In this document: positions 2,365-16,845 of the stretch, one piece after another | Layout: the number at the start of each line of letters is the position of its first letter | Numbering within the stretch: the stretch's first letter is position 1 | Source of the DNA: a virus | DNA length: 20,447 nt | Reading direction: 5' to 3' (one strand) | IMG/VR virus record: IMGVR_UViG_3300043410_000561 | Location: 1-20,447 of that record | Made by a program: the position numbers and the translations under genes | The notes under the pieces: generated by a model | Databases searched by the model: none | Told to the model about the DNA's origin: nothing | The model's input: only the letters and a program-made list of their open reading frames with translations

Positions 2365-4815
2365 ATGGCTACGAATTTTGACAAGAGTTTATATTCCAAT
2401 ACTCCGGAATATGGCGAAGACATGGCTGACATGCCGATGGAAGATATTGAGATCGAGGTCGAAGACCCGGAGAGTATGCGCATCAGCGCCGGGGGGATCG
2501 AAATCGAGCTTTTGCCTCCTTCAAAAACAGTGGGTGAAGAATTCGGTGCCAACCTTGCGGAAGACATGGATGAGAGTGAGCTTGGCACACTTGCATCTGA
2601 CTTGATGGGTTTGGTTGAGGCGGACATCAACAGCCGCAAAGATTGGACTGAGACTTACGTCAAAGGTCTTGATGTTTTGGGGATGAAGTATGAAGAAAGA
2701 ACTGAGCCGTGGAACGGCGCTTGCGGAGTGTTTTCTACTGTACTCACGGAAGCGGCCATACGGTTTCAAAGCGAGACTATCACGGAAACGTTCCCTGCTG
2801 CGGGCCCTGTTAAAACGGAAATTATTGGGGCGATTGATCGTCTTAAAGAGGAGGCTGCGGAGCGCGTAAGAGATGACATGAACTACCGCCTCACGGAGCA
2901 GATGCCTGAGTATCGCCCTGAACATGAGCGCTTGTTGTTCAACTTGGGTCTTGCGGGCGCGGCCTTCAAGAAAGTGTATTTCGATCCAGGCTTGAACAGG
3001 CAAACTGCGATCTTCTTGCCCGCCGAGGACGTGATCATTCCTTATGGGTCGTCGGGCTCGCGTACTGCTGAGCGCGTCACCCATTTAATGCGTAAGACGA
3101 AAAACGACATCAAGAAGCTGCAAGCTGCAGGTTTCTACCGTGAGTGTGACTTGGGTGAGCCAGTCAGCATTTACAACGATGTTGAGAAGAAGAAAGCTGA
3201 AGAGCAGGGCTACTCCATTACGGACGACGACCGCTATCAGCTTGCTGAGATTCAAGTTGACTATGTGCTGGAGGGAGATAAACGTGATGACGAGATTGCA
3301 GTCCCTTATATCATTACTATTGATCGCGGTACTAATAAGGTGCTTGCTATCTATCGAAACTGGAAAGAAGGTGATGAGACGTATGCGAAGCGCCAGCACA
3401 TGGTTCAGTACGACTATGTACCCGGCTTTGGTGCGTATGGCATGGGTCTTATTCATATCATCGGCGGCTATGCTCGCGCTGGTACTTCTCTCATTCGTCA
3501 GCTTGTTGATGCAGGTACTCTAGCCAACTTACCCGGCGGGCTGAAAGCTCGTGGCCTGCGTGTCAAAGGTGATGACACACCGATTGCTCCAGGTGAATTC
3601 CGCGACGTAGATATTCCAAGCGGAGCGATTAAAGACAACATCATGACCTTGCCCTACAAGGAACCTTCACAGGTTCTGATGGGCTTGCTCAATCAGATCA
3701 CTGAAGAAGCGCGTCGTCTGGGCTCAATCGCTGACATGAAGATGTCGGACATGAGCGCACAAGCTCCTGTGGGTACAACGCTTGCACTTCTTGAGCGTCA
3801 ACTCAAGATCATGGGCGCTGTCCAAGCCCGCGTGCACAATGCGATGAAAGAGGAGTTCAAACTTCTCAAGAGCATCATTCGTGACAACATGCCTGAAGAC
3901 TATGACTACTTGCCACTCGGGGGTGATGCGTCAGTCAAGCAAGCAGACTACGACATAGTTGAGGTCATTCCTGTTAGCGACCCTAACAGCTCAACGATGG
4001 CGCAGCGCATCATGCAGTACCAAGCTGTTATTCAGCTGGCGCAGCAAGCTCCTCAGATTTACAACTTACCAGTCTTGCATCGTCAGATGATCGAGGTGCT
4101 GGGTGTGAAGAATGCTGAGAAGCTGGTGCCGATCGATGATGATCAGAAGCCTCGCGATCCGATCAGTGAGAACATGGCGTTCTTGAACGGTGAGCCAACG
4201 AAGGCGTTCATCTATCAAGATCATGATGCGCACATCGCAGCGCACACAACGTTCATGCAGGACCCCATGATTGCACAGCAGATGGGTCAGAACCCCATGG
4301 CGCAGCAGATGATGGCGGCGATCCAGGCGCACATCGCCGAGCACTTGGCGTTCTTGTATCGCAAGAAAATTGAAGAACAGTTGGGCGTACCACTGCCACC
4401 ACCTGACTCTCAGTTGCCTGAAGAAGTTGAAGTGCAGTTGTCACAGCTTGTGGCGCAGGCGTCGGCTCAACTCTTGCAACAGAACATGGCCATGGCTCAG
4501 CAGCAGAAAGCTCAGCAGATGCAGCAAGACCCGCTCATTCAGATGCAGCAGGCCGAGTTGCAGATCAAAGCGCAAGAAGCTCAGACCCGTGCGCAGAAAA
4601 CACAAGCCGACATTCAGCTGGCGCAGCAGAAGTTGCAGCTTGAGGCTCAGCGTATTCAAGTTGAAGCACAGAAAGAGCAGCAGCGTGTGGCCTCGCAAGA
4701 GCGTCAGAACACACAGCGCCTGTCTGCGCAAGATCGTCAAAACGCTCAGAAGATCAGAGCCGACCTGGTGAAGAACATGAGCAAGGCGCAGACTAAACCC
4801 GGAGGTACTCAATGA
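2365..4815 (+). CDS. Portal protein with Gln-rich coiled-coil C-terminus
   Basis: At 816 residues and directly after the terminase, this is the portal, the dodecameric ring at one capsid vertex through which DNA enters and leaves. The N-terminal 60 residues are very acidic. The core contains a segment around residues 108-155 (ERTEPWNGACGVF and following helix) and a long helix-rich stem and wing region typical of large podovirus portals; I recall the phage SU10/phiEco32 type as the closest style. From about residue 635 the protein becomes rich in Gln, Met and Ala, and about 709-805 is an almost uninterrupted Q/A/E/R heptad-like helix, which could form a long barrel or crown extending into the capsid. 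The GAGGA ribosome binding site overlaps the terminase stop codon. Portal identity rests on position, size and general sequence style, not on a short diagnostic motif. Confidence 0.88.
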   Translation: MATNFDKSLYSNTPEYGEDMADMPMEDIEIEVEDPESMRISAGGIEIELLPPSKTVGEEFGANLAEDMDESELGTLASDLMGLVEADINSRKDWTETYVKGLDVLGMKYEERTEPWNGACGVFSTVLTEAAIRFQSETITETFPAAGPVKTEIIGAIDRLKEEAAERVRDDMNYRLTEQMPEYRPEHERLLFNLGLAGAAFKKVYFDPGLNRQTAIFLPAEDVIIPYGSSGSRTAERVTHLMRKTKNDIKKLQAAGFYRECDLGEPVSIYNDVEKKKAEEQGYSITDDDRYQLAEIQVDYVLEGDKRDDEIAVPYIITIDRGTNKVLAIYRNWKEGDETYAKRQHMVQYDYVPGFGAYGMGLIHIIGGYARAGTSLIRQLVDAGTLANLPGGLKARGLRVKGDDTPIAPGEFRDVDIPSGAIKDNIMTLPYKEPSQVLMGLLNQITEEARRLGSIADMKMSDMSAQAPVGTTLALLERQLKIMGAVQARVHNAMKEEFKLLKSIIRDNMPEDYDYLPLGGDASVKQADYDIVEVIPVSDPNSSTMAQRIMQYQAVIQLAQQAPQIYNLPVLHRQMIEVLGVKNAEKLVPIDDDQKPRDPISENMAFLNGEPTKAFIYQDHDAHIAAHTTFMQDPMIAQQMGQNPMAQQMMAAIQAHIAEHLAFLYRKKIEEQLGVPLPPPDSQLPEEVEVQLSQLVAQASAQLLQQNMAMAQQQKAQQMQQDPLIQMQQAELQIKAQEAQTRAQKTQADIQLAQQKLQLEAQRIQVEAQKEQQRVASQERQNTQRLSAQDRQNAQKIRADLVKNMSKAQTKPGGTQ

Positions 4816-4997
4816 ACGAGATCGAGCTACTTAGGAAGTACAACAACGAGTTCAGGGAGCAGGCCATCGACCGCCTGATCTCTGGCTCCGCTAAAGACTA
4901 CGCGGAGTATCGCGAGTTGGTAGGCGTGATTCGCGGTATGGACCACGCCAACTCCAGTTTGATGGACCTCCAGAGACGATTGGAAACAGATGACTAA
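4812..4997 (+). CDS. Small helical protein of unknown function
   Basis: This 61-residue protein starts inside the portal stop codon (ATGA overlap) with a good GGAGG site 7 bases upstream, so it is very probably translated together with the portal. It is charged, has no cysteine, no membrane segment and no signal peptide, and looks like two amphipathic helices (about residues 3-25 and 28-58). I do not recognise a family. Its tight coupling suggests a virion-assembly partner or small accessory factor, but this is inference from position only. Confidence 0.75.
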   Translation: MNEIELLRKYNNEFREQAIDRLISGSAKDYAEYRELVGVIRGMDHANSSLMDLQRRLETDD

Positions 4998-5628
4998 TGC
5001 ACCAGAACCAAGTGTTGCCGGATCGCCAACTTACATCCACATCGACGGGCAGGACATCAAGGTAGTTGCCAAGATGAGCCTCCCGCGTGTGGTGATCTTC
5101 GACAACTTCTTGTCTCTTGAAGAATGTGCAGAGTTAATTGATGGTGTGCTTGACAAGATTGAGCCAAGCACTGTTGTTGACGAAACGGCCCAAAAGTCTG
5201 TGCCCCACCCGGCACGCACAAGTTCTGGGTCGTATTACCACCGCGGTCAGACCGAGCTAGTCGCGCGGATTGAAGATCGCATCTCCAAACTACTCAACTG
5301 GCCAGTTGAGAACGGTGAGGGTTTGCAAGTGCTTAAGTACGAGATAGGTCAGGAATACCGACCCCATAACGACTATTTCGGGTCCGTAACGCCGGTCAAC
5401 GGCGGGCAAAGAGTCGGTACTTTCATCATGTATTTGAATACACCCACCGCTGGCGGCGGCACAAGTTTTCCTGATTCGGGCTTTGAAATCACCCCGCAAG
5501 CAGGTAGTGCGTTGTTTTTTAGCTACAAAAACGCAGATAGTTCTTCAAAAACCTTACATGCCGGTTTGCCGGTGTTGGAAGGGGAGAAGTGGATAGCCAC
5601 TAAGTGGCTCCGCGAGCGCCGGTATTGA
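4990..5628 (+). CDS. 2OG-Fe(II) dioxygenase, prolyl-4-hydroxylase-like
   Basis: Enzymes of this family use 2-oxoglutarate, O2 and Fe(II) to hydroxylate protein side chains, classically proline. The 212-residue protein carries the full double-stranded beta-helix signature: the HxD iron ligands H126 and D128 in YRPHNDYF, the distal histidine H190 in TLHAGLPV, and K200 in GEKWIATKW, placed to bind the 2-oxoglutarate carboxylate. The segment GTFIMYLN (143-150) and a GGGTSFP turn (155-161) match the prolyl-4-hydroxylase alpha-subunit fold. No signal peptide is visible, so it acts in the cytoplasm of the infected cell. It overlaps the preceding small gene by 8 bases and sits between the portal and a co-chaperonin. 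Its substrate is unknown; candidates are a virion protein or a host factor. An all-ligand-intact active site makes a working enzyme likely. Confidence 0.9.
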   Translation: MTNAPEPSVAGSPTYIHIDGQDIKVVAKMSLPRVVIFDNFLSLEECAELIDGVLDKIEPSTVVDETAQKSVPHPARTSSGSYYHRGQTELVARIEDRISKLLNWPVENGEGLQVLKYEIGQEYRPHNDYFGSVTPVNGGQRVGTFIMYLNTPTAGGGTSFPDSGFEITPQAGSALFFSYKNADSSSKTLHAGLPVLEGEKWIATKWLRERRY

Positions 5629-6115: not shown

Positions 6116-7081
6116 ATGGCGACATTTGAAAAGGTTGAGTACGTTTTTCCTGACGAAAAGGAAGAAGCGGAAAAGAGTGCGAATGAGCTCTTAAAAGACG
6201 ACGAGATAGAAATCGAAATCGTTGACAACACACCTCCAGCGGACCGCAACCGTGAGCCACTGGACACACCACCCGAAGAGGTTACAGACGAAGAGCTTGA
6301 GCGTTATACCGACGTCAAGCTTAAAGAACGTCTGGCCAAACTGGGTAAGGGCTACCACGACGAGCGCCGCGCTAAAGAGGCTGCTCAACGTGAGAAGGAA
6401 GAAGCTATCCGTCTGGCGCAAGCCGTTGTTGAAGAGAACAAAAAGCTGAAGGGTTCACTGACTACGAACCAAGAAGCTCTCTTGGCACAGGCTAAGCGTG
6501 TAGTAGCCGACGAACTTGAAAAAGCAAAGGTTAAGTACAAATCAGCGTACGAGTCAGGCGACTCAGACGCCATGGTTGAAGCTCAAGAAGAATTGACCGT
6601 CGCTCGTATGAAAGTAGAGCGCGTAAACAATTTTAAACCCGCGCCTTTACAAGAAGAAAAAAATGAGGTACAAACCACTCAATTCACGCAAACACCTCCT
6701 GTCGACCGCAAAGCTGAGGCTTGGAAAGAAGCTAATCCTTGGTTTGGCAAAGATAGGGAAATGACTGGCTATGCGTTTGCGTTGCATGAAAAGCTAGTCA
6801 TGGAAGATGGCGTTGATCCAAACTCGGATGAGTACTACCGGAGACTCAACGGGCGGATTCGCCAAGTGTTCCCAGAGAAGTTTGCCTCTGGAGACACCGC
6901 TGATGCACAACCCTCTCAGCGTCCAAGTAAATCAAACGTAGTTGCACCTGCATCGAGAAGTGTTGCACCCCGAAAAATCACACTTTCACCCGATCAAGTG
7001 CGCATGGCAAACAGGCTTGGAGTCCCATTAAAGCTCTATGCCGAAAAAGTTGCTGAACAAATGAGGAATAAAAATGGCTGA
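6116..7081 (+). CDS. Capsid scaffolding protein candidate
   Basis: Scaffold proteins line the inside of the procapsid, guide capsid assembly and then leave. This 321-residue protein has the expected features: no cysteine, high charge, an acidic N-terminus (residues 1-65), a long predicted coiled coil (about 66-170, rich in Glu, Lys, Ala and Arg), and a conserved-looking middle segment EANPWFGKDREM (205-216). Its small basic C-terminal domain (about 285-318, with PDQVRMANRLGVPLKLY) could dock on the capsid protein. It lies upstream of the major capsid gene with one unknown and one decoration-like gene between. The ribosome binding site AAGGAGG is the strongest seen in the window, which fits a protein needed in high amounts. 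No protease domain is seen. Function is inferred from composition and place. Confidence 0.75.
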   Translation: MATFEKVEYVFPDEKEEAEKSANELLKDDEIEIEIVDNTPPADRNREPLDTPPEEVTDEELERYTDVKLKERLAKLGKGYHDERRAKEAAQREKEEAIRLAQAVVEENKKLKGSLTTNQEALLAQAKRVVADELEKAKVKYKSAYESGDSDAMVEAQEELTVARMKVERVNNFKPAPLQEEKNEVQTTQFTQTPPVDRKAEAWKEANPWFGKDREMTGYAFALHEKLVMEDGVDPNSDEYYRRLNGRIRQVFPEKFASGDTADAQPSQRPSKSNVVAPASRSVAPRKITLSPDQVRMANRLGVPLKLYAEKVAEQMRNKNG

Positions 7082-8152: not shown

Positions 8153-9061
8153 ATGGCTATTTCACGCGCACAACTACTTAAAGAGTTGCTCCCCGGTTTG
8201 AACGCTTTGTTCGGTCTGGAATACGCTAAATACGGCGAAGAGCACAAAGAAATCTACGAAACAGAGTCATCTGAGCGTAGCTTCGAAGAAGAGACAAAGC
8301 TTTCTGGCTTCTCTGCCGCACCTGTCAAGAACGAGGGCCAAGCCATCGCTTATGACAATGCACAAGAAGCATGGACTGCACGTTACACCCACGAAACCAT
8401 TGCGATGGGCTTTTCCATCACAGAGGAAGCTGTGGAAGATAACTTGTATGACAGCTTGTCTTCACGCTACACCAAGGCTTTGGCCCGCGGTATGGCTTAT
8501 ACCAAGCAAGTGAAAGCTGCTTACGTATTGAACAACGCCTTCACAGGCGGCCCCACTTATGGTGACGGCAAGGTTCTGTGCGCAACAGATCACCCCTTGG
8601 TTTCTGGTGGCGTTAACAGCAACACACCCGCAACTCCTGCCGACTTGAATGAAACATCGTTGGAAAACGCTGTGATTCAGATCGCTGCTTGGACAGACGA
8701 GCGTGGATTGCTGATCGCTGCTAAGCCTAAGAAGTTGATCATCCCCCCATCACTGCAGTTCGTTGCAACTCGCTTGCTCGAAACTAACCTGCGTGTTGGC
8801 ACAAATGACAACGACATCAACGCGTTGAAAAACAACGGTTCCATCCCCGAAGGTTACACTGTCAACCACTACTTGACAGATACCAACGCTTGGTTCCTGA
8901 CAACAGACGTGCCTAACGGCTTGAAGCACTTCGTTCGTACACCCCTGTCTACAGGTATGGACGGCGACTTCGATACTGGTAACGTTCGTTACAAGTCTCG
9001 TGAGCGTTACAGCTTCGGCGTGTCCGATCCTCTGGGTATCTTCGGTTCACCCGGCGCTTAA
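8153..9061 (+). CDS. Major capsid protein (HK97 fold)
   Basis: This 302-residue protein is the main building block of the icosahedral head. The order scaffold, decoration candidate, capsid, terminator-like hairpin is standard. Sequence features fit HK97-fold capsid proteins of the Mu gpT-like type: an acidic N-terminal arm and extended loop (about residues 25-75), a long helix with YTKALARGMAYTKQVKAAYV (106-125), the ATDHPL turn (144-149), the strand KPKKLIIPPSLQFVATRLLE (191-210), and an A-domain-like end with GVSDPLGIFGSPGA. The start has AAGGAG 9 bases upstream. Codon choice is visibly more regular than in neighbouring genes (for example repeated AAC, TTC, ACA and TTG), as expected for the most abundant protein. 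No delta domain for a protease is seen, consistent with a separate scaffold. Confidence 0.9.
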   Translation: MAISRAQLLKELLPGLNALFGLEYAKYGEEHKEIYETESSERSFEEETKLSGFSAAPVKNEGQAIAYDNAQEAWTARYTHETIAMGFSITEEAVEDNLYDSLSSRYTKALARGMAYTKQVKAAYVLNNAFTGGPTYGDGKVLCATDHPLVSGGVNSNTPATPADLNETSLENAVIQIAAWTDERGLLIAAKPKKLIIPPSLQFVATRLLETNLRVGTNDNDINALKNNGSIPEGYTVNHYLTDTNAWFLTTDVPNGLKHFVRTPLSTGMDGDFDTGNVRYKSRERYSFGVSDPLGIFGSPGA

Positions 9062-9079
9062 TATTTCTTCGAAAATATT
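9060..9079 (+). other. A/T-rich hairpin after the capsid gene
   Basis: AATATTT (9060-9066) and AAATATT (9073-9079) form a 7-bp stem with loop CTTCGA. It begins within the capsid stop codon and directly precedes the G/C-rich terminator-like hairpin, so the capsid mRNA would end in two stacked hairpins. A 3'-end stabiliser is plausible but unproven. Confidence 0.45.
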
Positions 9080-9081
9080 TG

Positions 9082-9106
9082 AAGGGGGGCCTTGTGCCCC
9101 CTTTTT
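9082..9106 (+). terminator. Rho-independent terminator after the capsid gene
   Basis: GGGGGC (9085-9090) pairs with GCCCCC (9096-9101) around loop CTTGT. The stem can extend with G9084-T9102 and two A-T pairs, and a run of five T follows at 9102-9106. This has all parts of an intrinsic terminator. Partial read-through must be possible unless the promoter candidate just downstream is active. Confidence 0.8.
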
Positions 9107-9120
9107 ATTTGCTGTATATT
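9092..9120 (+). promoter_or_regulatory. Possible sigma70-type promoter overlapping the terminator
   Basis: TATATT (9115-9120) differs from the -10 consensus at one position. It is preceded at exactly 17 bases by TTGTGC (9092-9097), a weak -35. Transcription would start near 9127 and give a leader of about 85 bases before the gene at 9212. Placement right after a terminator supports the idea, but the -35 lies inside the terminator stem and the match is modest. Confidence 0.3.
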
Positions 9121-9185
9121 GCACTCAACCCGGGGTTCCCGGTGCATCAAATTGACCCGGCAAACGACATACCGATTGATGCGCT
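9121..9185 (+). promoter_or_regulatory. Structured leader before the gene at 9212
   Basis: Two hairpins can be drawn. CCGGG (9130-9134) pairs with CCCGG (9138-9142) around GTT. GTGCATCAA (9142-9150) pairs with TTGATGCGC (9176-9184) over 9 bp with one G-U pair, enclosing 25 bases. No coding frame uses this stretch convincingly. It may be a translational control element for the next gene, or simply phage intergenic structure. Confidence 0.35.
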
Positions 9186-9211
9186 GATCTTGTATGTAAG
9201 GACAATTTATC

Positions 9212-9667
9212 ATGGCAGTTTCTACTACCCAAAGTATCTGGCGTTCTGGTGGCGGCGATCAAACTCGCACCGCTTATTGTGGCTCCGGCGTGATGGCCGC
9301 GCAGTTCTACATTGCAGACGCTTCTGTTGCTACAGCAACTAACGTTAAAGTTTCTTCTGTTTCTGGCGCTCCCGCGTTGGTTCTCCCAGCTGGCGCTGTT
9401 GTGCTGTCTGTTGTCATCAATGACGCAGGTTCTGGCTCTGTTGACCTTGGCACTCGCGGCTACACTAGCGGCACTGTGACTGGCGCAGCTATTGCTAACA
9501 ACTTGTCTGTCGCGTCTCTTGGCACTGTTACTACCGGCCTGACCAATACAGCAATTTCTGCCATGTCCTATGTCACCGTGACAATCGACACAAGCGGTTC
9601 TGGCACCGTTGGTGGTTACATCACTTACTTTGTTGCTGATCCATACGTTGGCCAGCAAAACGTCTAA
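9212..9667 (+). CDS. Small beta-rich virion protein, head or decoration type
   Basis: This 151-residue protein sits between two copies of the same terminator-like hairpin, right after the major capsid gene. It is dominated by Ala, Val, Thr, Ser and Gly in alternating patterns (for example APALVLPAGAVVLSVVIN at 53-70), typical of an all-beta surface protein, and has no membrane helix or signal peptide. The last 15 residues (YFVADPYVGQQNV end) look ordered. I chose the ATG at 9212, with TAAGGA about 10 bases upstream. Its own transcription unit, if the flanking hairpins terminate, would let it be made in a fixed ratio to capsid protein. A decoration or head-fibre role is inferred; no family is recognised with certainty. 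Confidence 0.65.
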   Translation: MAVSTTQSIWRSGGGDQTRTAYCGSGVMAAQFYIADASVATATNVKVSSVSGAPALVLPAGAVVLSVVINDAGSGSVDLGTRGYTSGTVTGAAIANNLSVASLGTVTTGLTNTAISAMSYVTVTIDTSGSGTVGGYITYFVADPYVGQQNV

Positions 9668-9675
9668 TTGATCTA

Positions 9676-9697
9676 GGGGGCCTTGTGCCCCCGTTTT
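9676..9697 (+). terminator. Second copy of the G/C-rich terminator-like hairpin
   Basis: GGGGGC (9676-9681) pairs with GCCCCC (9687-9692) around loop CTTGT. The 17 bases GGGGGCCTTGTGCCCCC are identical to those after the capsid gene. The following tail GTTTTAAA is a weaker U-tract, so termination may be incomplete and the hairpin may act as an attenuator between 9667 and 9712. Confidence 0.65.
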
Positions 9698-9711
9698 AAA
9701 GGAGATTAATT

Positions 9712-10002
9712 ATGATGCAAACTGATGTACGGTCGGTACACACCGGCGGAACGCAAACTAATCTGGCCTTGATTGGCGGTCGCGTGCGTATTAAAGGTGT
9801 AGCCATTACGGGTGGCACTGGCGCTGGTACAGGTAAGTTCTTGAACGCTTCAGGCGGGACAGTTTTACTTGAACTCGATACTGGCTCTAACTCCAATATG
9901 ACTAATGTGTTGTTGCCCGGTGAAGGTATCTTATTCCCCAATGGAGTTTGGTACACATCAACAGGCACCGCACCTATTGGTATTACGGTGTTCTATGGCT
10001 AA
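9712..10002 (+). CDS. Small beta-rich structural protein
   Basis: This 96-residue protein has a strong AAAGGAG site 8 bases before its ATG; a second in-frame ATG follows immediately. It is rich in Gly, Thr, Val and Ile with short strand-turn patterns (GGRVRIKGVAITGGTG at 22-37; LLPGEGILFPNGVWY at 67-81), suggesting a compact beta-sandwich. There is no membrane segment and no cysteine. Similar small proteins occur in phage head regions as decoration or fibre-base proteins, but I cannot name a family. It overlaps the next gene by 8 bases, so the two are probably translated together. Confidence 0.68.
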   Translation: MMQTDVRSVHTGGTQTNLALIGGRVRIKGVAITGGTGAGTGKFLNASGGTVLLELDTGSNSNMTNVLLPGEGILFPNGVWYTSTGTAPIGITVFYG

Positions 10003-10240
10003 GAGTCCAGTATGGCAGAGGAAAGAGGGCAAGAACCCAAATGGTGGCTTGAACGCCAAGGGGCGCGCCTCCGCGAAAAAGCAAGGCATGAACTTGAAAC
10101 CTCCCCAGCCGGAAGGCGGCTCACGCCGAGACTCTTTCTGCGCAAGGATGACTGGCATGAAAAAGAAATTGACGAGCGAGAAGACGGCCAAAGACCCGAA
10201 CTCGCGCATCAATAAATCTCTTAAAGCTTGGAACTGCTGA
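9995..10240 (+). CDS. Small basic phage protein with SFCARM motif
   Basis: This 81-residue, strongly basic protein begins MAKSPVWQRKEGKNPNGGLN and contains SFCARMTGMKKK near the middle (residues 47-58). The pattern KGGLNAKGRAS...PP...SFCARM is one I recall from a widespread phage family of unknown function (DUF6321-like, from memory and unverified); here the KG of that motif is NG. The same frame stays open back to 9905, but translation should begin at 9995: the family's N-terminus starts there, and the ATG overlaps the previous stop codon by 8 bases. Two cysteines (in SFCARM and at the very end, WNC) are notable for such a small protein. It may bind nucleic acid or be packaged in the virion; no function is established. 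Confidence 0.75.
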   Translation: MAKSPVWQRKEGKNPNGGLNAKGRASAKKQGMNLKPPQPEGGSRRDSFCARMTGMKKKLTSEKTAKDPNSRINKSLKAWNC

Positions 10241-10241
10241 T

Positions 10242-10448
10242 ATGACTGAGCATACAGACAGCGTAAAAAATGTTCTTGATGTCGTGGCGGTGTTTACAAC
10301 CGTCGGGACTTTTCTCGAGGTAATTTCACCCGTGTTTGGATTTATTGGCGCGGTTGTTGGCTTGATGCGCATATACGAAATGGCCACGGGAAAAGAATTT
10401 CACACGCTTTTTAGGCGAAAGAAAGACGACGATGCCATCGACCAGTAA
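10242..10448 (+). CDS. Small membrane protein, holin candidate
   Basis: Holins form pores in the inner membrane that release the phage lysis enzyme. This 68-residue protein has a short charged N-terminus, a hydrophobic block from about residue 11 to 45 that could hold two short membrane helices with a turn near ISP (28-30), then MRIYEMATGKEF and a highly charged tail FRRKKDDD. The layout (N-terminus charged, hydrophobic pair, basic C-terminus) is holin-like, and small proteins ending the membrane part with an RIYE-type motif are common in phage genomes as I recall. No endolysin gene is seen next to it or elsewhere in the window, so the assignment is tentative. It starts one base after the previous stop codon. 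Confidence 0.6.
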   Translation: MTEHTDSVKNVLDVVAVFTTVGTFLEVISPVFGFIGAVVGLMRIYEMATGKEFHTLFRRKKDDDAIDQ

Positions 10449-10872
10449 AAAACAGCACAATTTCATGGCGGCGGTGGCCCACAACCCAGCGTTTGCTAAG
10501 AAGGCAGGGGTGCCCATGTCTGTGGGTAAGGACTTTAACGAAGCGGACAAGGGCCGCAAATTTTCAAAAGGTGGTGATACTATGGCTACAAGACCAGTAA
10601 TGAATGGTTTTCAAACCTTAAGACCTTCAATGACGCAAAATACAGGCAGTACCCGTATGGGCGCTCGCTACATGAAAGAAGGCGGCATGGCTAAGGATGA
10701 TACGGCTCAAGACAAGGCGATGATTAAAAAAGCCTTTAAGCAGCACGATACCCAAGAACACAAGGGCGGTAAGGGTACAACCTTAAAGCTGGCCAAAGGC
10801 GGTTCATTCCGCGCATCCGCCAACGGTATTGCCAAACGCGGCAAAACCAAAGGCACAATGATCAAAATGTAA
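10432..10872 (+). CDS. Basic Lys/Gly-rich protein with 'ANGIAKRGKTKG' tail
   Basis: This 146-residue protein has two parts. Residues 1-45 (SKKQHNFMAAVAHNPAFAKK and following) resemble small phage proteins of unknown function that start SK-Q-FM-A. Residues 50-146 are Lys/Gly/Met-rich, low in hydrophobic residues and probably disordered, and end in ANGIAKRGKTKGTMIKM. That end motif recurs in the proteins at 10882 and 12710. An internal ATG at 10582 (residue 51) is preceded at 8 bases by AAGGTGG, so a second product starting MATRPVMNGF may be made from the same frame; the join between the two parts lies exactly there. It overlaps the membrane-protein gene by 17 bases. Function unknown; nucleic-acid binding is a guess from charge. 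Confidence 0.65.
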   Translation: MPSTSKKQHNFMAAVAHNPAFAKKAGVPMSVGKDFNEADKGRKFSKGGDTMATRPVMNGFQTLRPSMTQNTGSTRMGARYMKEGGMAKDDTAQDKAMIKKAFKQHDTQEHKGGKGTTLKLAKGGSFRASANGIAKRGKTKGTMIKM

Positions 10873-10881
10873 GGGGCCGGT

Positions 10882-11154
10882 ATGCCTACACGTGAAGAAA
10901 TTGAACAGTCCAGGCAAGAAGGCATGGACGCCCGCAATGCTGCTAAGTTGGAAAAGGCTTATTCCAAGTCTTTGACCAACACCGAATACGCACCCGAAAA
11001 GAAAGACCCACGTGACGCTGTTCGCGGCCAACGTGGTTACGCTAAAGGTGGCTCAGTTGGTTCCGCCTCAAAGCGGGCTGATGGTATTGCTACCAAGGGC
11101 AAAACTCGCGGCACAATCATCGCCATGTGTGGCGGTGGGATGTACAAAAAATGA
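10882..11154 (+). CDS. Basic Lys/Gly-rich protein with 'ADGIATKGKTRG' tail
   Basis: This 90-residue protein has a charged helical N-terminus (residues 1-45, EEIEQSRQEGMDARNAAKLE) followed by a flexible Gly/Lys/Ser-rich region and the end segment RADGIATKGKTRGTIIAM (65-82), then CGGGMYKK. The end segment matches the tail of the upstream protein in 12 or more of 18 positions, although the N-terminal halves are unrelated. AAGGGG lies 8 bases before the ATG. Proteins of this kind, with repeated KGG and GKTKG words, are familiar from uncultured aquatic phages but without known function. No fold, membrane helix or enzyme motif is visible. Confidence 0.68.
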   Translation: MPTREEIEQSRQEGMDARNAAKLEKAYSKSLTNTEYAPEKKDPRDAVRGQRGYAKGGSVGSASKRADGIATKGKTRGTIIAMCGGGMYKK

Positions 11155-11384
11155 TGGCCAGTCGCGGCATGGGCAATATAGCCCCTAGCAAAATGCCCAA
11201 AGGCGTGAAAAAAGCACGTCGAGATGACACTGACTTCACGCAGTATGCCGAAGGCGGGCCTGTTGGCCTTTATGCCAACATCAACGCCAAACGCAAGCGC
11301 GGCGAAAAGATGCGCAAGCCCGGCCAGAAAGGTGCCCCTACCGCTCAGGCTTTTATTGACTCTGCAAAGACGGCGAAAAAATGA
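11151..11384 (+). CDS. Small basic conserved phage protein (GEKMRKPG motif)
   Basis: This 77-residue protein is placed at the ATG at 11151, which overlaps the previous stop as ATGA; an in-frame upstream ATG at 11127 adds eight residues but would overlap the previous gene more and breaks the familiar start MASRGMGNIAPSKMPK. A further ATG at 11154 is equally possible. The protein has a basic N-terminus, an ANINAKRKRGEKMRKPG segment in the middle, and an Ala/Lys-rich helical end. I recall this order of motifs in many phage genomes next to neck genes, but no function. It overlaps the following adaptor gene by four bases, so it is locked into the neck operon. Confidence 0.7.
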   Translation: MMASRGMGNIAPSKMPKGVKKARRDDTDFTQYAEGGPVGLYANINAKRKRGEKMRKPGQKGAPTAQAFIDSAKTAKK

Positions 11385-12316
11385 CCACTACCGGCTCAAC
11401 CCTCTTTAACATGGACTTCACGGAGATTGCCGAGGAAGCATGGGAGCGTGCGGGCCGAGAGATGCGTTCGGGCTACGACTTACGTACAGCTCGTCGTTCT
11501 ATGAACTTGATGACTATCGAGTGGCAGAACAAGGGCATCAATATGTGGACTATGGAGCAGGGGGTTATTAACCTGACGCCGGGGTTGTCTACTTATGCTT
11601 TACCGACAGATACTATTGATCTGTTGGAGCAGGTCATTCGTACAGGGCAAAACACGGCCTCTACGCAAGCTGACTTAACAATCACACGCATTAGCGTTTC
11701 TACCTATGCCACTATTCCAAATAAGCTCCAGCAAGCTCGCCCTATTCAAGTCTGGGTTCAAAGGCTTTCTGGAGAAGTTAACCCAACGACTTCGTCGCTC
11801 ATCGGAAACATCACCTCCTCGGACACAACGATCACGCTTGACACGGTGGTTGGGCTAGCGGGCTCCGGATTTATTAGGTTGGGTACTGAAGATATTTACT
11901 ACACGTATGTCACCGGCAATACTCTTGGTGGTGTATTCCGTGGTCAGAACAACACCCTTGCTGCAGCCCATGTGACTGGCACTGCTGTGTATGTCCCGCA
12001 GCTTCCGGCTGTAACCGTATGGCCAACACCTGATAACACAACACCATATCAGTTTGTGTACTGGCGCTTGCGCCGCGTGCAGGATGCTGGCGCTGGTGTT
12101 GAAACAGCCGATATGAACTTCCGTTTTCTGCCTTCTCTTGTAGCAGGCTTGGCGTACCATATTGCTGTCAAAACTCCTGAGTTGATGCAACGCATCCAAA
12201 TGCTCAAACAAATTTACGACGAGACTTTTGATATCGCCGCTGGCGAAGACCGCGAAAAAGCTGCTGTTCGTTTTGTTCCCCGCCAAATGTTTATAGGCGG
12301 TGGTGGGAGCTACTAA
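11381..12316 (+). CDS. Head-tail adaptor (neck) protein with inserted beta domain
   Basis: Adaptor proteins bind below the portal, close the DNA channel and carry the tail. This 311-residue protein has the helical start of such proteins (EEAWERAGREMRSGYDLRTA, 18-37, then NLMTIEWQNKGINMW), the GLSTYALP strand (68-75), and a C-terminal pair of helices (FLPSLVAGLAYHIAVK, 249-264) as in P22 gp4 or T7 gp11-type proteins. Residues about 139-203 look like an insertion: a Ser/Thr-rich repeat-like beta module with GTEDIYYTYVTGNTLGGVFR and AAAHVTGTAVY. Modules of that style are common in fibre and baseplate proteins. Removing it joins two halves of an otherwise compact adaptor. It starts with a 4-base overlap and its stop shares a base with the next ATG. 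Adaptor identity is by pattern, not certain. Confidence 0.72.
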   Translation: MTTTGSTLFNMDFTEIAEEAWERAGREMRSGYDLRTARRSMNLMTIEWQNKGINMWTMEQGVINLTPGLSTYALPTDTIDLLEQVIRTGQNTASTQADLTITRISVSTYATIPNKLQQARPIQVWVQRLSGEVNPTTSSLIGNITSSDTTITLDTVVGLAGSGFIRLGTEDIYYTYVTGNTLGGVFRGQNNTLAAAHVTGTAVYVPQLPAVTVWPTPDNTTPYQFVYWRLRRVQDAGAGVETADMNFRFLPSLVAGLAYHIAVKTPELMQRIQMLKQIYDETFDIAAGEDREKAAVRFVPRQMFIGGGGSY

Positions 12317-12708
12317 TGGGCAATAGATTTGCATCCGGCCGTATAGCGATTGCGGAGTGCGATCGATGCGGCCAACAATACAAATTAAAGCAGCTTAAGA
12401 CTGAGATCATTAAGCAGCGCTTGTATCAACTGTTAGTCTGCCCTGAGTGCTGGGATCCTGACCAGCCTCAACTGATGCTTGGAACATTTCCCGTTGATGA
12501 TCCGCAGGCTTTGCGCAACCCACGCAAGGACACAACGTACGTCACTTCTGGTGTCAACGTTAACGGTAATTTGTCCGGTGGTTCACGTGACATTCAGTGG
12601 GGCTGGAATCCGGTTGGCGGATCTAGGTTAAATGATAATTTACTAACGCCAAACTACTTGGCATTAGGCGTACAAATTGGTACAGTAACGATACAGATAG
12701 GAGCTTAA
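12316..12708 (+). CDS. Zinc-ribbon protein of the neck module
   Basis: This 130-residue protein carries a CxxC...CxxC zinc ribbon: C15 and C18 in CDRCGQQY, and C42 and C45 in VCPECWDPDQPQ. A conserved-looking run MLGTFPVDDPQALRNPR (54-70) follows, then a Gly/Asn/Ser-rich segment and a short beta-rich end. I recall proteins with this exact order (ribbon, then PVDDPQA-RNPR) beside adaptor genes in many aquatic phages; their job is not known. Its place suggests a structural or assembly role rather than transcription. The start codon shares one base with the previous stop (TAATG). All four metal ligands are present. Confidence 0.75.
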   Translation: MGNRFASGRIAIAECDRCGQQYKLKQLKTEIIKQRLYQLLVCPECWDPDQPQLMLGTFPVDDPQALRNPRKDTTYVTSGVNVNGNLSGGSRDIQWGWNPVGGSRLNDNLLTPNYLALGVQIGTVTIQIGA

Positions 12709-12709
12709 T

Positions 12710-12898
12710 ATGGCATTCACACGATCAGCAGACGGCATCGCTAAACAGGGCAAAACCAAAGGTAAAAACTTGGGTGATAGCGGCCCCTCGCTCGGTATCC
12801 AAAAGGGCGCTAAAAAATCTAGCGGTTCTAAAACTGTAAGTAACGAAGCGTTGATGAAGATGGGCCGCAACATGGCCCGTGTCAGCAACCAGAAGTGA
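12710..12898 (+). CDS. Small basic protein starting with 'SADGIAKQGKTKG'
   Basis: This 62-residue basic protein starts one base after the zinc-ribbon gene and uses AGGAG within the end of that gene as its ribosome binding site. Residues 6-18 are SADGIAKQGKTKG, the same motif that ends the proteins at 10432 and 10882; here it sits at the N-terminus. The rest is Gly/Ser/Lys-rich with a short helix at the end (EALMKMGRNMARV, 45-57). No enzyme motif or membrane segment is present. The shared motif in a different position suggests that it is a functional peptide (binding or packaging signal) rather than general homology. Confidence 0.65.
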   Translation: MAFTRSADGIAKQGKTKGKNLGDSGPSLGIQKGAKKSSGSKTVSNEALMKMGRNMARVSNQK

Positions 12899-12905
12899 GG
12901 CTAAC

Positions 12906-13172
12906 ATGGCTAAATTCAGCAAAAAATTAATGGGTAAAGAAGTTGGCGATGCCAAGGTCTATGCCAAGCCCCACACCATGAGCGGTAAAGCAGTTAAAGC
13001 TTCTACAAACCCTGGTAGCGGCGCGAACAAAAGCAAGTTGGATGAGTACGATGTGAGCATTGGCGCTATTAGTAAGTCTGCCGGCAATGAGCCAACTAAG
13101 ACTGACGGCATCAAAATCCGTGGTACTGGCGCAGCTACTAAAGGCGTAATGGCACGAGGCCCAATGGCATGA
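12906..13172 (+). CDS. Small basic protein with 'RGTGAATKG' tail
   Basis: This 88-residue protein is assigned the start at 12906, which has TGAGG 7 bases upstream; the in-frame ATG at 12879 would overlap the preceding gene by 20 bases. It is Lys/Gly/Ser-rich, mostly without predicted order, and ends TDGIKIRGTGAATKGVMARG (residues 66-85). The TDGI...G-TKG core is a looser version of the motif in the other small proteins of this region. I recall this ending in other phage genomes. The stop overlaps the next adaptor gene (ATGA). Function unknown. Confidence 0.68.
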   Translation: MAKFSKKLMGKEVGDAKVYAKPHTMSGKAVKASTNPGSGANKSKLDEYDVSIGAISKSAGNEPTKTDGIKIRGTGAATKGVMARGPMA

Positions 13173-13840
13173 ACTACACGCAGCTGGTCACAGCGGTAAG
13201 CGATTACTGCGAAAACACTTTCCCAACAACTGACATGGATATATTTATCCGTCAGGCGGAGCAACGCATTTACAACACTGCACAGCCCGCTAACTTGAGA
13301 AAGAACGTGACTGGTGCGCTTACTTCTGGCAACCAATACCTTAGCTGCCCAAACGACTTTCTTTCGGTGTATAGCTTGGCCATCTACCCAGCTTCTGGCA
13401 CGGGTGACTACTTGTACTTGTTAAACAAGGATGTGAACTTCATGCGTGAAGCATATCCAAACCCAGCAACGCAAGGCAAGCCAAAACACTACGCTATCTT
13501 CGGGCCGACTGTATCGGCTGGCGTCATTTCAAATGAGCTGTCATTTATCCTAGGCCCAACACCAGATGCAAGCTACAACATGGAGCTGCATTATTACTAC
13601 TACCCAGTCTCAATTGTGGATTCACCTTCTGGCACTACATGGCTTGGTGATAACTTTGATTCTGTGTTGTTGTACGGCACAATTTGCGAAGCCTTTGTTT
13701 ACATGCGCCAAGAAGGTGACATGGTTAAACTTGCACAAGATCGTTACGTGCAAGCAATTGCTCTGTACAAAAACTTGGCAGATGGTAAGCAACGCGCTGA
13801 TGCTTACCGTGATAGTCAGGTTAGGATTAATGTGTCATGA
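13169..13840 (+). CDS. Second adaptor (neck or tail-tube) protein
   Basis: This 223-residue protein opens with MNYTQLVTAVSDYCENTFPT and IFIRQAEQRIYN (26-37), which is the N-terminal helix pattern of phage adaptor proteins of the T7 gp11 / SU10 adaptor type. A beta-rich middle follows (SGNQYLSCPNDFLSVYSL; HYAIFGP; LSFILGPTP), then the helical end (YGTICEAFVYMRQEGDMVKLAQDRYVQAI) typical of these proteins. It would form the second ring under the portal, or the tail hub. It starts and ends with 4-base overlaps, so it is translationally coupled to both neighbours. Of the two adaptor candidates in the window this one looks most like the canonical family. Confidence 0.75.
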   Translation: MNYTQLVTAVSDYCENTFPTTDMDIFIRQAEQRIYNTAQPANLRKNVTGALTSGNQYLSCPNDFLSVYSLAIYPASGTGDYLYLLNKDVNFMREAYPNPATQGKPKHYAIFGPTVSAGVISNELSFILGPTPDASYNMELHYYYYPVSIVDSPSGTTWLGDNFDSVLLYGTICEAFVYMRQEGDMVKLAQDRYVQAIALYKNLADGKQRADAYRDSQVRINVS

Positions 13841-14910: not shown

Positions 14911-16845
14911 ATGGCTCTTGTACTAGCAAACCGTGTCCAAGAAACCGCCACGGCCAATACCACTGTAAGCTTTACGCTTCTTGGGGCCACTGTCGGTTTC
15001 CAAACGTTTTCTGCGGGTGTTGGTAACTCCAATACAACGTATTATGCAGCGTCCGATATTTCAGGCAATTGGGAAGTAGGACTTGGCACGTATTCAACTA
15101 CTGGGCCAACACTAACACGTACGACCATTTATGCTTCCAGTAACTCCGGAAGCGCCGCCACTTTCAGTGGTACTTGCACCGTTTTCGTTACATACCCATC
15201 TGGCAAATCTGTTAATTTAGACACTAGCGGTAATGCTAGTCCATTAGGTACGGTGGCTTCGGGTATCTGGCAAGCTTCAACCATTGGCGTGGCCTACGGA
15301 GGTACAGGCGTTACTGCATCTTCTGGCGCTAATTCTGTTGTGCTTCGTGATAGCAACGGAAACTCAACCGCTAATAATTTTGTCCCCGGGTATGTAGTAG
15401 TAACAGCAGCGGCTGGAACAACAGTATTGACAGCAGCATCTGCTTACTACCAGCGCTTGTCGGGCTCTACCACTCAAACATTTCAATTGCCTGATGGCAC
15501 TACGCTGGCAAATGGCCATGCGTTTGTTTTTGACAATGACTCTTCTGGCGTATTGACTGTTGTTGATAGCGCAAGCGCTACAATTGATACCATCCCGTCC
15601 GGCGGGTATGGCTACATATTTATTGAAAACAATACTACATCAGCAGGGTCGTGGGGTAAATACGCCCTTGTGCCTGGCTCGTATGATTTCAGTACATCTT
15701 CAGCCAACTTTGGTGGAGCTACCATTTCTAATGCGGTTTGGAATGGAACTGCAATTGCCTCGGATTATGGTGGTACGGGCTTAACAACCTTTACTGGCGC
15801 AAATAATGCCATTTATTCCACTTCAGCTTCTGCTTTAGCCGCCGGCACTTTGCCTGTGGCAGCTGGCGGTACAGGTGTAACTACTTCTTCTGGCGTAAAC
15901 AGCGTGATGATACGTGACGCTAACCAGAACGTTGCGGTTAACAGGTTAAACCAATCTAATACATCTACAGCCTCTGCGGGCGGCACAACCACACTGACTG
16001 CAGCGTCTAGCTATTCCCAAACACTAACGGGAACTCTTGCGCAAACATATAAGATGCCTGACGCAACCACACTGACTACGGGTGTGGCATTCGTGTTTAA
16101 CAACAATTCAACAGGTTTGTTAACGCTTCAAAACAATGCGTCTGCAACAGTTGGAACCATCACTGCCGGCGGCGCAGTTGAATTAGTTTTGCTTGATAAC
16201 AGCACGGCTGCAGGGGTTTGGGATATCCATGGATACATACCTGAGAACGTAACTTGGGGCACTAACGCCCTAGCGCTTGGCTCTACTGTTATTACAGGCG
16301 GTACATGGAACGGCGGTACAGTTACTTCTGGCTACGGTGGTACAGGCTTAACAACCTTTACCGCGGCAAATAATGCCATCTATTCCACCTCGTCTTCTGC
16401 GCTGACTGCGGGTACTCTGCCTGTTTTGGCTGGTGGTACAGGCACAACAACACCTAGCATTGTTGCTGGAACAAACGTTACTGTAACCGGTACTTGGCCA
16501 AACCAAACTATAGCTACAGGCGTTCGAGTAGTCGCTATTGCCGACTCTTCAACCGTTTCGATTAATGCGGACACGACGGATATTGCAACGCAAGCAAACA
16601 CTCAGGCAACCGGTACATTGACAATCTCTGCGCCAACAGGAACGCCTGTAAACGGCCAAAAGTTAATCTTTCGCTTGCTATCAACTAACGTGCAGACGTT
16701 TAGCTGGAATGCTGCTTTCCAAGGCTCCACCGATTTGGCACTACCTACGGCGTCTACGGGTTCTAGCAAATATGACTACATGGGCTTTATTTGGAACTCA
16801 ACAAATAGCAAGTGGCAGTTACTTGCTAGAAACATGGGCTTCTAA
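14911..16845 (+). CDS. Tail fibre protein with two 189-residue repeats
   Basis: This 644-residue protein is probably a receptor-binding or linking fibre. Residues 1-103 form an N-terminal domain (LANRVQETATANTTVSFTLL; WEVGLGTYSTTGPTLTRTTI) that I recall from many phage fibres as the part attaching to the particle. Residues 130-507 are two consecutive units of exactly 189 residues, each starting GGTG and each holding a second GGTGLTTFT-ANNAIYSTS unit about 157 residues later. The end (about 535-644) is a separate beta-rich domain with QKLIFRLL and YMGFIWNSTNSKWQLLA, probably the trimerisation or tip domain. No collagen-like repeat, chaperone/autoprotease domain or enzyme motif is visible. Its GGAGTCTTAAATGGC start context is shared with the gene at 7561. 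Confidence 0.82.
   Translation: MALVLANRVQETATANTTVSFTLLGATVGFQTFSAGVGNSNTTYYAASDISGNWEVGLGTYSTTGPTLTRTTIYASSNSGSAATFSGTCTVFVTYPSGKSVNLDTSGNASPLGTVASGIWQASTIGVAYGGTGVTASSGANSVVLRDSNGNSTANNFVPGYVVVTAAAGTTVLTAASAYYQRLSGSTTQTFQLPDGTTLANGHAFVFDNDSSGVLTVVDSASATIDTIPSGGYGYIFIENNTTSAGSWGKYALVPGSYDFSTSSANFGGATISNAVWNGTAIASDYGGTGLTTFTGANNAIYSTSASALAAGTLPVAAGGTGVTTSSGVNSVMIRDANQNVAVNRLNQSNTSTASAGGTTTLTAASSYSQTLTGTLAQTYKMPDATTLTTGVAFVFNNNSTGLLTLQNNASATVGTITAGGAVELVLLDNSTAAGVWDIHGYIPENVTWGTNALALGSTVITGGTWNGGTVTSGYGGTGLTTFTAANNAIYSTSSSALTAGTLPVLAGGTGTTTPSIVAGTNVTVTGTWPNQTIATGVRVVAIADSSTVSINADTTDIATQANTQATGTLTISAPTGTPVNGQKLIFRLLSTNVQTFSWNAAFQGSTDLALPTASTGSSKYDYMGFIWNSTNSKWQLLARNMGF
15298..16431 (+). repeat. 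Two tandem 567-bp in-frame repeats in the fibre gene
   Basis: Unit 1 spans 15298-15864 and unit 2 spans 15865-16431; the third GGTG begins at 16432. Protein units are equal in length with no gap. The DNA has diverged overall but keeps conserved blocks, such as GGCTTAACAACCTTTA at 15778 and again 567 bases later. Homologous recombination between units would change fibre length in whole units. Confidence 0.85.

Follow-up and report, generated by a model that had tools for sequence, protein, structure and literature searches.

A short peptide tag shared by unrelated small basic proteins encoded between phage capsid and neck genes: a candidate docking signal for procapsid cargo

The IMG/VR virus record IMGVR_UViG_3300043410_000561, analysed here over its full 20,447 bases (the window), covers the packaging and head region of a phage genome, and between its major capsid gene and its neck genes a short basic peptide, which we call tag A, recurs on proteins that are otherwise mutually unrelated. 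Reading of the sequence places the core ADGIAxxGKT[KR]G in three window proteins, named here by the first base of their genes (10432, 10882 and 12710; Table 1). A preliminary description of this DNA had reported four copies of such a motif; three are true copies of tag A, whereas the fourth, on the 12906 protein, is a related tag, B′. The spans given there agree with ours within a few codons, and its statement that the remainder of the carrier proteins is unrelated holds in the window.

The best characterised carrier is the 10432 protein, which matches phrog_16759 (2.8e-21) and two PHROGs annotated as virion structural protein, and whose family of 23 aligned members keeps the G, G, T and G of the tag invariant. 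AlphaFold2 models of this family place three helices over residues 1-40 (block-mean pLDDT 84-92) and give about 51-60 for the tag region, consistent with a flexible linear motif that is predicted to be disordered; searches of solved structures and a fold search with the 10432 model returned nothing usable. The 10882 protein has no Pfam match and a single weak PHROG match, and in some relatives a HESRMHKG-type module replaces the N-terminal part of the 12710-type protein.

Table 1. Genes and tag copies of the packaging, head and neck region, in window coordinates; relatives are the 38 IMG/VR loci described in the text.
Feature	Position	Family match	Content and remarks
Terminase	gene 820
Portal	2365..4815 (+)	phrog_1216 portal, 3.7e-21	net charge -37; candidate tag partner
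2OG-Fe(II) oxygenase	4990-5628	PF13640, 7e-16	between portal and scaffold
GroES-like gene	5702
Probable scaffolding protein	6116..7081 (+)	phrog_28737, 1.2e-38	precedes capsid; candidate tag partner
Major capsid protein	8153..9061 (+)	Phage_capsid_4, 6.7e-13; Mu-like gpT, 9e-8	anchor for the conserved tag position
DUF6321 small basic protein	9995..10240 (+)	PF19846, 5.2e-19	no tag in the window
Carrier 1, 10432 protein, 146 aa	10432..10872 (+)		43-aa helical N-terminal module SKKQHNFMAAVAHNPAFAKKAGVP, variable middle, tag A
Tag A core ANGIAKRGKTKG	10819..10854 (+)		residues 130-141 of the 10432 protein; TMIKM-stop next
Carrier 2, 10882 protein, 90 aa	10882..11154 (+)		body ...SKSLTNTEYAPEKKDPRDAVRGQRGYAKGG; 6 members in strict clustering
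Tag A core ADGIATKGKTRG	11077..11112 (+)		residues 66-77 of the 10882 protein; 13 residues beyond
Small basic untagged protein, same block	11154..11384 (+)	phrog_16028, 1.2e-17	N-terminus conserved, C-terminal module swappable
Adaptor 1, SU10-adaptor-like	11381..12316 (+)	PF24175, 1.3e-6	closes the main cargo block; in 38/38 relatives
Carrier 3, 12710 protein, 62 aa	12710..12898 (+)		N-terminal tag; homologue in 22/38 relatives
Tag A core ADGIAKQGKTKG	12728..12763 (+)		residues 7-18 of the 12710 protein; N-terminal placement; family MAYTRSADGIAKKGKTEGKNLGNSGP...
12906 protein, 88 aa (ATG start)	12906..13172 (+)		tag B′; directly upstream of adaptor 2; homologue in 33/38 relatives
Looser fourth copy TDGIKIRGTGAATKG	13101-13145		in the 12906 protein
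Tag B′ RGTGAATKGVMARGPMA-stop	13119..13169 (+)		C-terminus of the 12906 protein
Adaptor 2, SU10 adaptor	13169..13840 (+)	PF24175, 6.1e-23

The motif extends far beyond this genome. A degenerate DNA pattern for the core retrieved at least 120 stretches from IMG/VR, where our scans give a lower bound on abundance from non-random samples in which some loci share a contig, and a slightly narrower pattern found three matches in 257 Gb of bacterial and archaeal genomes, two of them on phage-like contigs. The third (Alcanivorax, L125) lies inside an unrelated long open reading frame (ORF), an acyl-CoA synthetase by eye, and was set aside as chance. Applied to the fetched loci, with gene calls made mechanically and carriers deduplicated by sequence, a regular expression recovered at least 333 distinct carriers of a tag of about 25 residues that ends in the motif. 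Its C-terminal form reads [K]GG-x-V-S-S-A-S-[KR]-R-A-D-G-[IC]-A-x-[KR]-G-K-T-[KR]-G-[KR]-[MIF]-x-COOH, the linker before the core being rich in KKGG and SSAS[KR]R, and 204 of the 333 carriers stop exactly three residues past the core, most commonly with KMC, KMV or RMV. A second group of about 110 continues for 10-27 residues, often to a Met-x-x-GG ending, and in a third form, that of the window's 12710 protein, the core stands at about residue 7 of a protein of 59-64 residues. The invariance of G is partly built into the expression; the T position and position 11 were free to vary, and every one of the 333 carriers has T rather than S at the former and K or R rather than N at the latter. Exact C-terminal placement and the basic-then-hydrophobic last residues of the 204 would suit a ClpX-like C-terminal degron, a degradation or processing signal by which a host protease sets the lifetime of late or ejected proteins. 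This is very unlikely, given the long extensions of the second group, a family tagged at its N-terminus, conservation that is strongest inside the tag (DGxA..GKT.G) rather than at its end, and the restriction of the tag to head-neck genes.

A profile of the 27-residue tag gave 418 matches at E<1e-3 in the open frames of related loci and 0 in reversed proteins; although these carriers also served to train it, neither the reversed control nor the 70 matches that fall outside the expression depend on that training. Random low-complexity similarity with no positional conservation had been named at the outset as the result that would overturn the motif, and the composition of these small basic proteins, rich in lysine and glycine, does invite it. 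It is refuted by those counts, by the absence of any antisense copy, and by the fixed position and stop distance of the tag: the motif is not a product of chance. Nor does it belong to a described family. Among 97 diverse carriers Pfam recognised only DUF6321 (1) and YnaL (1), the PHROG matches of carriers fall on the bodies where they can be located (the remainder are single weak ones), and the motif is not printed, nor the tag described, in the literature searched or in the Pfam and PHROG libraries. Searches of cultured phages by tblastn with short tag peptides did not find tag A, and a single copy in Planktothrix phage Pag-Yong1 (309-aa UMO75986.1) was found by reading the nearest relatives.

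Codon usage separates the peptide from the DNA that encodes it. At identical residues the codons agree at 0.49 within genomes and 0.44 between them, against 0.42 expected, and 10 of the 13 same-genome pairs with identical 12-residue cores differ at 3-10 codons. Since synonymous codons differ while the peptide is kept, selection acts on the peptide and not on the DNA. A DNA recombination or gene-swapping site, with the peptide as its by-product, would explain why bodies are exchanged over a constant 3′ end, but the same codon figures largely refute it and leave it highly improbable. The tag also has what might be called dialects: in the C-terminal class residues 6 and 7 (QR, TK, VK and others) agree within genomes at 0.61 and 0.74, against 0.26 and 0.49 after shuffling, and 0 of 500 shuffles match the observed mean. 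Just this pattern is expected if the peptide co-evolves with a single partner in each genome, and gene duplication accounts for few of the pairs only.

The position of the tag is equally constant. In 51 of 122 tag loci the capsid gene is visible; in each of them it precedes the tag by 1.7-6.8 kb and shares its strand, and no counterexample to this placement occurs among the 51. A further 69 loci have less than 5.5 kb of upstream sequence, L071 starts just past the expected capsid site, and L016, which bears only the N-terminal form, was left unscored. Long viral contigs (up to 87 kb) with a known capsid position hold no tag outside the capsid-neck block. In the capsid-anchored loci all 80 tags lie on the capsid strand and 0 are antisense. 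Conversely, 31 of 42 longer tag contigs hold a window-type capsid, and of the 38 IMG/VR loci that carry a window-like capsid followed by no less than 5 kb of sequence, 31 show the tag by the strict pattern, to which the profile adds L181; L150 has a degenerate GIESKGKTKCKMR end. The capsid-to-adaptor interval is 2.2-4.5 kb in five of the seven genomes that lack tag A, against a median of 5.0 kb, so that gain or loss of the tag tends to accompany that of the cargo genes. The movable functional peptide of the preliminary description is thus seen on many unrelated bodies, in one N-terminal and two C-terminal placements and always in the head-to-neck block, and the profile search with a position check that it had proposed shows matches clustered there.

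The bodies to which the tag is attached are, by contrast with the tag, hypervariable. After removal of the tag they were clustered strictly (looser clustering fused them through low-complexity linkers) and fell, among the matches listed, into 163 clusters, 132 of which are singletons; many genomes hold 2-4 carriers. Across 29 capsid-anchored genomes, with the 10432 family excluded, a homologue was found in another genome in 13% of comparisons for carrier bodies and in 47% for untagged ORFs of the same interval, the latter value being depressed by some spurious ORFs. Carriers have a median length of 125 residues, a median body charge of +7 and a mean of +14 per carrier, and they are not membrane proteins, since only 1 of 295 bodies has a strongly hydrophobic segment. 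Tagging also varies within a family: the DUF6321 protein, untagged in the window, bears tag A in several relatives (a tagged cluster of 7).

A sister marine lineage, typified by pelagiphage HTVC023P, uses another tag. HTVC023P lacks tag A, and three of its proteins, gp51, gp53 and one encoded at about 22.3 kb, end in or near RGxGAA, which resembles the tag B of this lineage, RGxGAAxRGxxFKGVF-COOH. Scanning IMG/VR with RGxGAAxRGxxFKG gave at least 120 loci, and among the matches listed 150 of 152 tags stand exactly two residues before the stop, against zero tags in the reversed control; 31 of the 120 loci have at least two B tags, none has tag A, and 70, together with 14 of 20 longer contigs, hold an HTVC023P-type portal. 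The AHNP body carries tag A in the window lineage and tag B in L216 and L321. Tag B′, almost without exception a single-copy feature, stands exactly 8 residues from the stop in 100 of 105 matches (103 loci). Profile comparison by hhalign relates B′ to B (E 1.7e-5), and only weakly to A (E 0.024), with 0.12 for A against B; homology of A and B is only suggestive, and a common frame R-x2-G-[IA]-A-x-[RK]-G-x2-3-[RK]-G-x-[MF]-x-COOH for all three is no more than plausible. Searches of cultured phages by tblastn with tag B peptides returned only HTVC023P (E 0.3) and one half-length match.

The tag-B lineage also bears on a role that the preliminary description had offered, docking on a shared partner such as the portal ring, by which the carriers would be small neck or tail-completion subunits with a common binding site on portal or adaptor. 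The tagged genes of the window do lie just upstream of, and between, two SU10-type adaptors, with the N-terminal form between them, and the portal is very acidic (-37). Several tagged genes of the tag-B lineage, however, sit between portal and scaffold, ahead of the capsid gene, and the extreme diversity of the bodies and their absence from some genomes are unlike structural neck subunits, so that neck docking seems improbable. The other role it had suggested, binding of DNA or RNA, we judge unlikely. Here the carriers would be virion or late nucleoid-like proteins with no protein partner, their GxxxxGKT/RGKTRG core contacting nucleic-acid phosphate. Tag and bodies are strongly basic, the genes stand beside head genes, and the core fits the generic Walker-A pattern G-x4-G-K-T, a weak hint from sequence. 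A plain nucleic-acid-binding tail, however, needs no fixed 27-residue sequence, no invariant D-G and G-K-T-x-G spacing and no fixed stop distance, and has no use for residues 6-7 that vary from genome to genome as dialects; 14 of the 333 carriers have H in place of K, and tags A and B substitute for each other by lineage.

A connection with virions comes through one carrier body module, on which both tag A and tag B occur. The first 43 residues of the 10432 protein form this module, which also stands at the start of CBB_322, an 847-aa protein of jumbo phage CBB (58% identity over a 49-aa query). Mass spectrometry identified CBB_322 in CBB virions by 30 unique peptides at 43.6% coverage (PMC5259590). 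The module likewise begins 121Q gp51 and a structural protein of PBECO4, and in Shewanella phage QDWS it begins a 615-aa protein whose gene is the second after that of the portal. It is the body module, not the tag, that the CBB_322 link ties to the head. The sequence of CBB_322 (L332 3501-6041) further contains HELQH, a motif seen in zincin peptidases, and the protein is a possible metallopeptidase.

One peptide is thus carried by many unrelated bodies at a fixed genomic position, under selection at the protein level and with genome-specific dialects, and it is replaced in a sister lineage by a second tag. Among the roles first proposed for it, a capsid-entry tag fits best because of the hypervariable basic cargo, the head-gene location, the within-genome dialects and the presence of one carrier body module in a protein that mass spectrometry has detected in virions. 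The tag itself is well supported; packaging and a partner are inferred. On balance we lean, with no great confidence, towards a docking tag, usually C-terminal and left uncleaved, by which small basic proteins of hypervariable sequence are drawn into the procapsid. In this lineage of aquatic podovirus-like phages a short, probably unstructured tag, fused to fast-changing small basic proteins encoded between capsid and neck genes, would be bound by one head component of the same virus, most likely the acidic scaffold or the inner surface of capsid or portal; bound carriers would enter the procapsid and be delivered afterwards alongside the DNA, and a phage could extend or exchange its cargo by attaching the tag to any small protein. 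The candidate receptors, scaffold, portal and capsid, are all acidic (-10, -37 and -11), and the first 80 residues of the scaffold have a charge of -13. Family searches recognised no prohead protease from portal to capsid in the window, where proteins 7074 and 7561 have no assigned function, so the tag is probably not removed.

Several considerations weigh against cargo loading. The partner is still at the level of candidates (scaffold, portal, capsid), and a tag so strongly basic could simply bind DNA or RNA. The proteomic evidence concerns a body module in another phage and not the tag, and a literature search found no virion proteomics of any tagged phage. Sharing of dialects may in part reflect duplication (3 of the 13 identical pairs are also codon-identical), and the strict link to one capsid lineage could mean that the gene block as a whole was inherited from a common ancestor. 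The few genomes that have the same capsid and lack tag A indicate that the head can do without the system, and the single N-terminal copy indicates that the tag does not depend on a free C-terminus.

Phages of this kind abound in lakes and in the sea, and hardly any are in culture. Should the tag prove to direct loading into the head, it would single out hundreds of small, uncharacterised phage proteins as candidates for ejection; it is among its ejected proteins that T4 has restriction inhibitors and host modifiers. It would then provide a sequence handle for injected effectors, a compact C-terminal tag for loading capsids in the laboratory, and a testable tag-receptor pair for recruitment of internal proteins without a protease-cleaved signal. 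More tentatively, and with the odds somewhat against it, lineage-specific, uncleaved C-terminal address tags (A, B and B′) may form, in dominant lineages of aquatic phages, a general cargo-loading code that host-takeover or anti-defence proteins keep entering, with tags and receptors co-evolving and with exchange between lineages.

Some observations concern the genes around the carriers. The gene at 11154-11384, adjoining adaptor 1, keeps the N-terminus SRGMGxIxPxKMP...RRDxTDFTQYxxGG in the window and in loci L199, L209, L173, L150 and L071, whereas its C-terminal half exchanges at least four unrelated basic modules (KMRKPGxKGAPTA; AGQWSARKAQL; IKKPGALHxQLGVPxG; GRPYPNLVDNMRAA). A zinc-ribbon-like protein with CxxC...CxxC (window 12316-12708) lies between the two adaptors in 37 of the 38 relatives and occurs in just 4 of the 120 tag-B loci among the matches listed. 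The capsid-adaptor interval is broken by homing-endonuclease-like ORFs, GIY-YIG type by eye, in L150 (9005-9626) and L071 (7457-8188). Cultured pelagiphages have a block of very basic small genes (KVYPSAYAN, DUF6321-like and others), located in HTVC023P (L126) at 11021-11338, 15481-15864, 15864-16133 and 16144-16509 and in L127 at 8690-11001, and several of these genes bear the B tag in tag-B relatives. Contigs G055, G056 and G066 (L300, L304 and L238) have one internal TAA or TAG in the portal frame, which may reflect a frameshift, an error of sequencing or stop-codon reading.

By terminase, portal and capsid, the nearest cultured relatives of the window are Pag-Yong1, MinM2, DSL-LC04, HTVC023P, HTVC027P and CRP-901/902. 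Homology to HTVC023P/Pag-Yong1-type phages amounts to at most 57% identity for the large terminase subunit (TerL), 45% for the portal and 73% for the capsid, and for HTVC023P-type pelagiphages (PMC9599517) and Pag-Yong1 the papers searched do not describe the tags. In behaviour the closest analogue is the capsid-targeting sequence (CTS) of T4, through which small basic internal proteins reach the prohead core: 10 residues from the start of IPIII are enough, a CTS also brings foreign proteins into the head, and internal proteins vary between related phages while CTS-like ends persist (PMC9026906). As with the CTS of IPI-III and Alt (PMC9026906), a short signal recurs here on a number of small basic proteins whose genes accompany those of the head, and the signal is kept while the cargo is poorly conserved between related phages. 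The T4 CTS, however, is N-terminal, about 10 residues long and cut by the prohead protease gp21, whereas the tag is mostly C-terminal and about 25 residues long, with no protease recognised, and the two sequences are unrelated; we claim no homology and do not file the tag as a T4 CTS, because its position differs and packaging here is presumptive. In the giant phages SPN3US and phiKZ terminal segments, the propeptides of head proteins, are thought to steer ejection proteins into the prohead, but these are N-terminal, often exceed 100 residues and are removed by a protease (PMC5694885). The carriers also recall the virion polyvalent proteins (Iyer et al. 2017, PMC5512222) in being modular and predicted to be packaged in the head, and the carrier modules DUF6321 and AHNP occur on much longer phage proteins as well; virion polyvalent proteins, however, are large multi-domain enzymes, whereas the carriers are short, share one tail and match Pfam in only 2 of 97 cases.

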